A stretch of 64,000 nucleotides of DNA from Blastococcus sp. TBT05-19. GTDB taxonomy: Bacteria > Actinomycetota > Actinomycetes > Mycobacteriales > Geodermatophilaceae. Of the stretch, positions 13,912 to 32,763 are shown piece after piece; the stretch's first letter is position 1, and each line of letters starts with the position of its first letter. The notes beneath the pieces are model-generated. The model was not told where the DNA came from, made no database searches, and saw only the letters and a list, made by a program, of their open reading frames with translations. The stretch is from contig NZ_QOHI01000001.1 in NCBI RefSeq assembly GCF_003319095.1, positions 372,001 to 436,000 on the forward strand. The letters are read 5' to 3'. The translations under genes were made by a program, and so were the position numbers.

Positions 13912-13984
13912 GCCGGCGTGGCGCAATTGGTAGCGCACCCGACTTGTAATCGGGCGGTTAGGGGTTCGAGTCCCCTCGTCGGCT
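13912..13984 (+). tRNA. tRNA-Thr (anticodon TGT)
   Basis: Complete cloverleaf of 73 bases. Acceptor stem GCCGGCG pairs with CGTCGGC (one G-T wobble), the D-stem is GCGC/GCGC, and the anticodon stem CCCGA/TCGGG encloses loop CTTGTAA with TGT at positions 34-36. The T-arm is AGGGG-TTCGAGT-CCCCT. The discriminator is T, and CCA is not encoded, so it must be added after transcription. The last base also belongs to the stop codon of the convergent DUF5313 gene. Confidence 0.97.
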
Positions 13985-14382
13985 CAGTCGAAGCTGCCGG
14001 CGCCGTCGCGCCGGTAGGGCGAGAGCCGTTCCAGGCGCCGGCGCTCGACCCGCTCCGCGCGGATCCGCGCCGCCGTGCCCGGCTCGTAGCCGGCCTTCGC
14101 CACGCGGTGCTCGATCGTCTCGACCATGTAGGCCATCGAGAACAGCAGACCGAGCAGCAGCCCGCCGAGGGCGGCCGACGCCCGGTAGGCCAGCGGCACG
14201 GGCACCACGAGCAGGCAGACCAGCACCAGCGGGCTCAGCTGGACGACGGCGCGGGCGAGGTGCCGCCACACCCAGGAACGGCGGGTGGTGTCCTCGAGCA
14301 CCCACGGGGAGAAGCGGTGGGGGAGACCTCCACCGAGGGCGTACCAGATCCACCGGAGGGGACCGGGCCGCACGCTGCTCAC
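13984..14382 (-). CDS. DUF5313 family membrane protein
   Basis: 132 residues: N-terminus RPGPLRWIWYALGGGLPHRF and WVLEDTTRRSWVWRHLARA are typical of this actinobacterial family of unknown role. Two hydrophobic helices (about 50-68 and 70-87) follow, then a charged tail rich in Arg and Glu. GTG start preceded by TACCGT six bases upstream and no Shine-Dalgarno, suggesting a leaderless mRNA. Its stop codon shares base 13984 with the end of tRNA-Thr on the other strand. Confidence 0.8.
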   Translation of the reverse strand: MSSVRPGPLRWIWYALGGGLPHRFSPWVLEDTTRRSWVWRHLARAVVQLSPLVLVCLLVVPVPLAYRASAALGGLLLGLLFSMAYMVETIEHRVAKAGYEPGTAARIRAERVERRRLERLSPYRRDGAGSFD

Positions 14383-22676: not shown

Positions 22677-22803
22677 CACTCATCCAGAGGGGCAGAGGGA
22701 CACGGCCCGATGAAGCCCCGGCAACCGCCGACTGCGCTCGCGCAGCGGGAGGTGCCAATTCCGTCCTGCGCGGCTCGACGGCCCGACGCGGGGAAGATGA
22801 GGA
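22677..22803 (+). ncRNA. SAM-I (S-box) riboswitch
   Basis: Conserved S-box segments occur in order: CCAGAGGGGCAGAGGGA with the kink-turn, GATGAAGCCCCGGCAACC, a GC hairpin (CTGCGCTCGCGCAG), and GGTGCCAATTCC. Stem P1 is CTCATC (22679-22684) with GATGAG (22796-22801). The last P1 base is the first G of the GGAGG ribosome site (22801-22805) for the gene starting at 22816, so SAM binding would hide the Shine-Dalgarno. No terminator hairpin is seen, so translation control is likely. Confidence 0.93.
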
Positions 22804-32445: not shown

Positions 32446-32467
32446 GCTCGGAGTGAGCCTCGGCACG

Positions 32468-32497
32468 ACGACAGACCGGTGTCCCGCGGCGTACTGT
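32468..32497 (+). promoter_or_regulatory. Putative promoter of the structured RNA
   Basis: ACGACA (32468-32473) as -35 matches GACA of the consensus; TACTGT (32492-32497) is the -10 at an 18-base spacing. Predicted start near 32504, directly before the closing stem of the RNA. Confidence 0.5.
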
Positions 32498-32503
32498 GGG
32501 CCG

Positions 32504-32685
32504 TGTCCGGGCCGGGTGCATCGTGCCCCCGGGTGCCATTTGGTTATCGCCTTCACGGACTACCGCCCCGACCTCGGTCGGGGGCCTGGAGCCGTGTTGT
32601 GCTCTCCGCCGCGAGGCGGCCGTCATCCGGTCCGGACCTCGCTCCTCGCAGAGCCCCCGCCCCTCCGGGCGGGGGCTCTCGCGCG
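32504..32685 (+). ncRNA. Candidate structured RNA (unassigned; leader or small RNA)
   Basis: The 318-base gap 32446-32763 has no convincing gene but dense pairing. An 11-bp closing stem, GTCCGGGCCGG (32505-32515) with CCGGTCCGGAC (32627-32637), contains a G-T pair that would be an A-C mismatch on the other strand, so the plus strand is favoured. Inside are CACGG (32554-32558) with CCGTG (32592-32596), enclosing CCCCGAC-CTCG-GTCGGGG (32566-32583), and CCGCC-GCGA-GGCGG (32606-32619) with a GNRA loop. A terminator hairpin follows. It matches no riboswitch I can name. A TAGCGT at 32722 could start the transporter separately, so it may be a free RNA. Confidence 0.55.
32650..32679 (+). terminator. 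Perfect hairpin after the structured RNA
   Basis: AGAGCCCCCGCCC pairs with GGGCGGGGGCTCT (13 bp, loop CTCC). No T-run follows. It lies 84 bases upstream of the MHS transporter start and could end a small RNA or act as attenuator. Confidence 0.7.
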
Positions 32686-32721
32686 TCCGCCCGCCGAGGT
32701 GCCGCTCAGGGGTGACGGGCC

Positions 32722-32727
32722 TAGCGT
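32722..32727 (+). promoter_or_regulatory. Possible second promoter (-10) for the MHS transporter
   Basis: TAGCGT, 36 bases before the ATG at 32764; no clear -35. If real, the gene does not depend on read-through of the upstream hairpin. Confidence 0.35.
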
Positions 32728-32763
32728 GAGGCCGGTCACGACCGCACGACCGAGGGGGGCACC

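Follow-up and report, generated by a model that had tools for sequence, protein, structure and literature searches.

A conserved structured RNA gene of Blastococcus and its relatives in the class Actinomycetes

The window considered here is the whole analyzed stretch of 64,000 nucleotides from Blastococcus sp. TBT05-19. It contains a gene-free gap, bounded on one side by a gene that Pfam assigns to DUF2510 and the scramblase family and on the other by an MFS (MHS) transporter gene, in which the elements of Table 1 are found. The original prediction had read the gap as an unassigned structured RNA starting near 32504 and pointing toward the transporter, and this reading is supported by the lack of an Rfam match and by the abundant compensatory changes described below. 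The gene that it called LURP-one is the DUF2510 and scramblase-family gene. The 7-bp hairpin, the hairpin with a GNRA loop, and the perfect 13-bp hairpin are all present as proposed. The closing stem is also present but measures 14 bp, including two G-U pairs, rather than 11 bp, and the inner pairing has to be revised: the GNRA hairpin pairs locally, so that the fold is a three-way junction. The promoter-like pair (ACGACA, an 18-nt spacer, and TACTGT) exists, with its TANNNT box fixed in nearly all copies of the same type, but a generic sigma-70 scan of the gap called no promoter. The 13-bp hairpin, without a T-run, was not among the terminators called by a scan for them. Two other RNA features were detected in the window, a SAM riboswitch at 22677-22803 (+; 72.8 bits, above the gathering score) and a tRNA-Thr (TGT) at 13912-13985 (+), the sole tRNA detected there.

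Table 1. Elements of the predicted RNA gene and its surroundings (window coordinates; pair counts are double changes in alignments A1, A3, and A4)
Feature	Position	Strand	Basis and remarks
Gene-free gap	32446-32763		Direct sequence; holds -10 box, RNA body, and 13-bp hairpin
Gap flanks			Pfam; DUF2510 + scramblase-family gene; MFS (MHS) transporter
Candidate -35, ACGACA	32468..32473	+	Direct sequence; 18 nt before -10
-10 box TACTGT (TANNNT type)	32492..32497	+	TANNNT 7 nt before RNA in 56/58 copies of this closing-stem type
Conserved RNA body (predicted small RNA gene)	32505..32638	+	blastn conservation; models R1 and R2
P1 closing stem, 5' strand (14 bp)	32505..32518	+	Double changes at 14/14 pairs in A3 and A4
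P1 closing stem, 3' strand	32624..32637	+	Same A3/A4 covariation
P1b, 5' strand	32522..32526	+	Paired: 32522, 32523, 32525, 32526; U32524 bulged
P1b, 3' strand	32619..32622	+	A3/A4 covariation
Junction strand	32527..32548	+	With preceding base, core = (U/G)CCCC(C)GGG
P3 apical arm, 5' strand	32549..32558	+	Double changes at 3/8 pairs in A3, 5/8 in A4
P3 apical arm, 3' strand	32592..32602	+	A3/A4 covariation
P4, 5' strand (3 bp)	32563..32565	+	After internal loop ACUA/AG
P4, 3' strand	32587..32589	+	A3/A4 covariation
P5 optional 7-bp extension hairpin	32566..32583 (32566-32572/32577-32583)	+	A-U/G-C covariation in A1
P2 local hairpin CGCC-GCGA-GGCG	32607..32618	+	Stem pairs kept in 39-40/40 A4 rows
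13-bp perfect terminator-like hairpin	32650..32679 (32650-32662/32667-32679)	+	No T-run

The fold was evaluated in four alignments. A1 is an unfitted MAFFT alignment, in which the first fold considered has double changes at 4 pairs; A2, A3, and A4 were fitted to models, so that their pair counts are biased toward the modelled structure. A3 holds 88 sequences, with 97.6% of cells paired and 425 double-change cells as compared with 118.1 after shuffling; its covariation is 0.368, against 0.094 in shuffled and 0.021-0.056 in slid controls. As its 80 named loci were retrieved by a pattern that fixed the P2 hairpin and the strings GGANYACCG, GGAGCC, and GYGC, the constancy of P2 and of parts of P3 and P4 in A3 is partly a matter of construction. 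A4 consists of 41 matches (40 distinct) at loci unused in building R2, mostly Streptomyces and plasmid copies, and has double changes at 24 of its 33 pairs, in 174 cells versus 41.7 after shuffling, with a covariation of 0.391, where the shuffled control gives 0.115 and the slid controls no more than 0.116. P1b changes at 2 of 4 pairs in A3 and 4 of 4 in A4, and P4 at none of 3 pairs in A3 and one of 3 in A4, while P5 is missing or altered in many other lineages (gaps in A2). Compensatory changes in homologues, which the original prediction had proposed as its own test, are abundant in A2, A3, and A4. This covariation supports a putative three-way junction with a variable 14-bp closing stem, a near-invariant CCCCGGG strand, a hairpin whose loop is mostly GNRA, and an apical arm.

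Covariation of this extent also bears on whether the region might instead encode a short protein or hold GC-rich hairpins that are grouped by chance. Open reading frames of 77-78 codons do cross the region, and GC-rich DNA folds well on both strands: the predicted energy of positions 32503-32690 is -111.4 kcal/mol (z -4.15) on the plus strand and -106.5 (z -3.56) on the minus strand, values so nearly equal that energy alone hardly sets the orientation. The covariation, however, is far above both the shuffled and the slid controls, and the RNA bodies of relatives (132-134 nt) differ by single-base indels that would break a reading frame. A coding or chance origin is accordingly regarded as extremely improbable.

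The core (U/G)CCCC(C)GGG begins the 5' strand of the junction in 87 of the 88 rows of A3 and 38 of the 41 rows of A4. P2 is invariant in A3 (CGCC-GNGA-GGCG), the alignment whose retrieval pattern demanded it, and exceptions to its GNRA loop occur elsewhere (CCGA in 1/49 A2 rows; GCGUA in 8/41 and GAGU in 1/41 A4 rows). P3 carries an internal loop in the A3 fold and in Streptomyces often takes the form CACAGGG/CCCUGUG, with pairing retained. The first RNAalifold fold, in which the CCCCGGG strand was paired with the GNRA hairpin, was rejected, two of its pairs being broken in 12/47 and 30/47 rows of A2; such a pairing may represent a second conformation. In Pseudonocardia, tandem second copies (L160:849-944 and L182:1409-1504) have lost nearly all of the apical arm and keep P1, the CCCCGGG strand, and the hairpin; these are natural minimal forms. 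Short forms lacking most of P3 were found in four more genomes (L269-L271, L309).

Conservation of the element far exceeds chance and reaches well beyond the genus. Of the 40 relatives sampled with blastn, 23 were other genomes of the genus or family, and 22 of these have it at E < 1e-30; the exception, a 91% complete genome of the same genus (G018), gave no match at this threshold and only a weak one elsewhere, from either loss or a gap in the assembly. R1 and R2 each match the Blastococcus genome once, in keeping with a single copy. With R1, the RNA was detected in 99 of 112 family genomes, among them 91 of the 96 of good quality, and in 70 of 200 genomes of the order (E up to 0.01). R2 matched 95 of 394 genomes and 47 of 137 genera in a sample of the class (E up to 0.001, a count that includes weak matches near the cut-off); 74 of 121 Streptomyces-genus genomes were positive, with up to 7 copies, and 47 gave no match. 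In a sample of the phylum, 8 of 198 genomes were positive, every one of them in the window's own class. Searches of more than 40 genomes used stricter filters, which weak members may escape. A pattern scan of named genomes returned at least 119 stretches, and the genera among the 80 matches listed include Blastococcus, Modestobacter, Geodermatophilus, Micromonospora, Actinoplanes, Amycolatopsis, Lentzea, Saccharopolyspora, Pseudonocardia, Nonomuraea, Actinomadura, and Nocardiopsis.

Members of the family also occur in records labelled as plasmids, a label taken from the database, in which one such record is 11.85 Mb long. Sixty of these have similar DNA by blastn (E up to 0.001; Streptomyces 45, Rhodococcus 11, Prescottella 2, [Kitasatospora] 1, Nonomuraea 1), and R2 matched all 10 of the plasmid stretches given to it, from 13 fetched. 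In 57 of the 60 the match lies under no listed gene, two are in unannotated records, and one falls under a "GTPase" gene, the gene table being incomplete. On two of the 13 plasmid stretches viewed, both from the Streptomyces group (L275, L276), a gene for a sigma-70 family sigma factor lies at most 2 kb from the RNA. No match was found in phage records and viral contigs. One genome, G728, carries equal-scoring copies at C1:100956 (+) and C1:10165581 (-), near opposite ends of a single 10.3-Mb contig, as if in terminal inverted repeats.

No Rfam family accounts for these sequences. At gathering scores, no Rfam 15 family matches within the gap, and with E values up to 10 the only matches are to the terminator-like hairpin; the RNA itself was thus free of matches to known families, a second test that the original prediction had set itself. 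Six distant member loci, searched with E up to 0.5, and further loci likewise had no Rfam match at the RNA, and the sole occurrence retrieved in a literature search on four core strings was unrelated. The RNA family is a real and widespread one for which no Rfam entry was found, and the presence of a conserved small RNA gene in the window can be regarded as almost certain.

The sequences upstream of the RNA divide the family in two. Here, "Geodermatophilaceae type" denotes copies whose closing stem contains the string GTCCGG(G/A)CCGGG and is not a taxonomic term, and all copy counts for promoters and hairpins use a script pattern requiring the core strand and the hairpin. In copies of this type, TANNNT stands exactly 7 nt upstream of the RNA in 56 of 58. 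In the others, GGAA(C/T)-N18-GTT is found upstream of 150 of 195 distinct copies as compared with 31 of 5759 control windows, with other spacers being rare; where upstream regions are less than 65% identical, the motif is still present in 99 of 134 copies (control, 24 of 3971). Over all copies, its fifth position is occupied 107 times by C and 44 times by T. Published consensus sequences are GGAAT-N18-GTT for SigR of S. coelicolor, GGAAC-N17-18-cGTT for SigH/SigE, and GGAAT-N18-19-GTT for SigH of Corynebacterium. By this correspondence, the upstream motif is a predicted promoter of the published SigR/SigH/SigE type, that is, an ECF stress promoter. Among copies of the Geodermatophilaceae type, a GGAAC/T-N17-19-GTT promoter was found in 1 of 58 only, and as the other 57 are without it, stress control cannot be transferred to the window RNA. 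Upstream of copies in Dactylosporangium (L158, L166) and Catellatospora (L177) there is a TANNNT-like box and not GGAAC-N18-GTT; these boxes are possibly separate promoter switches.

At the other end of the gene, 122 of 238 copies are followed by a stem of 10 or more uninterrupted base pairs, versus 13 of 1052 control windows, with about half of the copies being without one.

Whether the RNA is a free transcript or a leader of the gene beyond it had been left as alternatives by the original prediction. In the window the RNA does point at the MHS transporter, the body ending 126 nt before the start codon, as would be expected of a cis-acting leader or riboswitch. Among 23 loci of about 3 kb (the window's own included), however, the transporter is present at only 4, and a DUF gene, located on the far side of the transporter in the window, is present at 17, 14 of which have no transporter; the scramblase-family gene lies upstream at 17 of the 23. 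In addition, the hairpin and a TAGCGT box at 32722-32727 (+), which alignment shows to be common to the four transporter-carrying loci, separate the RNA from the transporter. This box had been suggested as a second -10 after the hairpin; it is indeed present, and its distribution fits the transporter's own promoter, which it probably is. More broadly, neighbours vary around 144 places in 141 loci, the commonest downstream cluster accounting for 21 of the 144 (crude gene calls, by inspection), and no common neighbour gene was found around these places, so that no partner protein can be named. With promoter motifs of its own, hairpins, and varied neighbours, the RNA is read as a putative transcription unit in its own right, and the proposal of a leader for the transporter must be judged very improbable.

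Clues to function come from Streptomyces. The available text of PMC11077062 describes scr0792, an RNA from the gap between SCO0791 and SCO0792 of S. coelicolor that is about 85 nt by northern blot, was enriched 712-fold with RNA polymerase (RNAP) in stationary phase, and is called low-abundant by its authors; the same text reports that no RNA was strongly associated with HrdB, and gives for scr0792 no homologues, structure family, or stress promoter. Among the literature searched, scr0792, SCO0791, SCO0792, and SCO0793 are named only in that paper. By crude gene calls, several Streptomyces copies of the family are followed by an SDR/epimerase gene and, farther on, by a ROK regulator gene.

The family was placed on the S. 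coelicolor map via a relative, G873, after a search of 392 Streptomyces-genus genomes with a 21-mer primer for scr3559 (PMC8539372). Only G873 has this 21-mer; a second primer also matches it exactly and a third, a 24-mer, has no exact match. R2 matches G873 once, at a copy with a mismatch in the P2 stem and a modelled RNA of 114 nt without a terminator. Upstream of the RNA, the gene order is ferredoxin-like, P450, ..., PRPP synthetase, EF-G-type GTPase, ..., GH16, PHP, HAD, and a FUSC-type membrane protein; past it are an epimerase, a small gene, a ROK gene, a small gene, and a FUSC/aromatic-acid exporter. This order is from a crude caller, with ten of the proteins checked by Pfam and the ferredoxin and small genes outside that check. 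On the S. coelicolor side, SCO0794 encodes a ROK regulator; no paper in the literature searched mentions this gene by name. Published sources give SCO0773 as a ferredoxin, SCO0774 as a P450 with SCO0775 divergent, SCO0782 as a PRPP synthetase, and SCO0796 as a putative membrane transporter. Taking the exporter as SCO0796 would make SCO0792-0795 of the four genes called between it and the RNA in G873; four is the number needed, one of them being a doubtful call of 67 codons. Upstream, 8 genes rather than the required 9 are called between the PRPP synthetase and the RNA, and 5 rather than 7 between the P450 and the PRPP synthetase. By gene order, then, the RNA gap of G873 would be the SCO0791-SCO0792 gap, both gene counts fitting this without proving it.

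The identity of the G873 RNA with scr0792 is made less secure by the inexact gene count and more secure by the SCO0796 anchor. Its main weakness is one of size: the reported RNA of about 85 nt is unlike the RNA of 114 nt modelled in G873 before any terminator, and a body of this length with a terminator requires that processing be assumed. On balance, since G873 has a family member in a gap equated by gene order, the two are probably the same RNA, and we judge it likely that the family includes scr0792.

With moderate confidence, then, the family is proposed to be one of stress-linked, trans-acting, RNAP-associated small RNAs, with the window RNA as its Blastococcus member. In this proposal, the window gene would encode a free-standing small RNA acting in trans, one representative of a family of the class Actinomycetes. 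Outside the Geodermatophilaceae type, an ECF-type stress promoter would drive the RNA in most of the copies sampled, a role taken in the Geodermatophilaceae type by TANNNT, and many copies would end at the terminator-like hairpin. The members would bind RNAP or a polymerase complex, contact being made by way of the junction that the CCCCGGG strand forms with the small hairpin and that an exchangeable closing stem keeps in place, and this binding would modulate transcription during stress or stationary phase. Enrichment of scr0792 with RNAP by RIP denotes association, direct binding not being proven by RIP, and for Blastococcus in particular, the case for RNAP binding as the function may be called evenly balanced.

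Part of the same evidence could be accommodated by a small RNA that acts through base pairing. Here, the exposed strand CCCCGGGCCUCACCU would serve as a seed for G-rich, Shine-Dalgarno-like sites in mRNAs, the stems would confer stability, and the RNAP enrichment of scr0792 would be indirect. The strand between P1b and P3 is indeed unpaired in the consensus and near-invariant in its first part, and CCUCACC, read as sequence, complements GGUGAGG-like sites. Yet the segment after CCCCGGG differs by lineage (UGCCAUUUGGUUA in Blastococcus, GCUCAAC and CUCCAAC elsewhere), so that a common seed could hardly extend beyond CCCCGGG; the conserved junction with its conserved small hairpin resembles a docking fold more than a seed, and the enrichment with RNAP (PMC11077062) weighs against pairing as well. 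This explanation is considered doubtful.

A further possibility is that the RNA binds or titrates a protein other than RNAP, such as a translation regulator or an RNA chaperone, with multiple and plasmid copies setting the dose. Dose-dependent decoys may occur as do these RNAs, in up to 7 copies in one Streptomyces genome and in tandem, and GGA triplets are present at the apical internal loop. The neighbourhoods surveyed above nonetheless offer no common protein neighbour, even the commonest downstream cluster being limited to 21 of 144 places, and the GGAAUACCG/GGAGC elements become GGACGAUCG/GAAGC in Streptomyces. Titration of another protein is thus distinctly unlikely.

Returning to the proposed RNAP association, a broader and speculative form of it would make the family a further RNAP-associated class beside 6S, Ms1, and CoRP: a three-way-junction RNA, induced by stress sigma factors, that retunes the use of sigma factors by RNAP, replaces Ms1 where Ms1 is not found (e.g., in Geodermatophilaceae), and provides plasmids of Streptomyces and Rhodococcus with a means to act on host transcription. 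This extended version is tentative and on present indications more apt to be wrong than right. The results allow the window RNA to fill the place of Ms1 in its own lineage, but as G873 has the RNA beside an Ms1-like locus, the RNA is not simply a substitute for Ms1.

The RNAs known to act on bacterial RNA polymerase are few, and this one may represent a novel type of RNA-based transcriptional regulator. A family with a stress promoter, a near-invariant core, and a probable member caught with RNAP opens the question of whether a small RNA conveys oxidative, heat, or envelope stress to the polymerase in actinomycetes, and also that of what acts in lineages where Ms1 is not found. The covariation-supported model can be used, moreover, for annotating genomes in which the gene is probably blank, as the lack of an Rfam match at the RNA and the plasmid matches lying under no listed gene imply.

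Comparison with known systems places the family in context. 6S RNA has a closing stem, an open centre with a small hairpin on its 3' side, and an apical stem, and its partner is RNAP: it binds the primary-sigma holoenzyme and serves as a template for product RNA. The window RNA has this outline in common with 6S RNA, and possibly also the partner; it is much shorter, however, and has the conserved CCCCGGG strand. The 6S profile (RF00013) gave no match in the gap with E up to 10, nor in six distant member loci with E up to 0.5. Actinobacteria have been reported to be without 6S RNA (PMC9130861).

Ms1 (RF02566; scr3559, MTS2823) is likewise a structured RNA of Actinobacteria, its ends paired and its middle open. 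It is described as associated with RNAP, about 230-300 nt long, and adjoining a HAD hydrolase gene, and one paper reports a search of Geodermatophilales in which Ms1 and the corresponding synteny both went undetected. Whereas Ms1 is flanked by a HAD hydrolase/oxidoreductase gene, the flanks of the window RNA are a scramblase-family gene and an MFS transporter gene. The RF02566 profile had no match in the gap with E up to 10, and two tests found no similarity between profiles; its best match in the Blastococcus genome, on another contig, scores 15.2 bits against a cut-off of 162, and matches below the cut-off also occur in 4 of 14 control genomes. G873 has an Ms1-like match of 33.3 bits, again under the cut-off of 162, in the same genome as the family RNA. 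About 1.1 kb from that match, at L303:9908-9984, is a match to 6C RNA of 46.1 bits (cut-off, 47); in the gap, 6C RNA (RF01066) gave no match with E up to 10. Membership in either the Ms1 or the 6S family is rejected by these profile searches.

CoRP of Corynebacterium glutamicum, as described in PMC11077062, is an RNAP-associated RNA of 516 nt, unrelated to 6S and Ms1, that lies between tRNA genes and has close homologues only in Corynebacterium. Like CoRP, the family RNA is actinobacterial and, by profile, distinct from 6S and Ms1, the reported association with RNAP being that of CoRP. The regulons of SigR, SigH, and SigE provide the remaining comparison. The passages found in the literature do not name the RNA as a member of these regulons; their promoter motif is shared by most sampled members of the family outside the Geodermatophilaceae type, and the target here is a small RNA.
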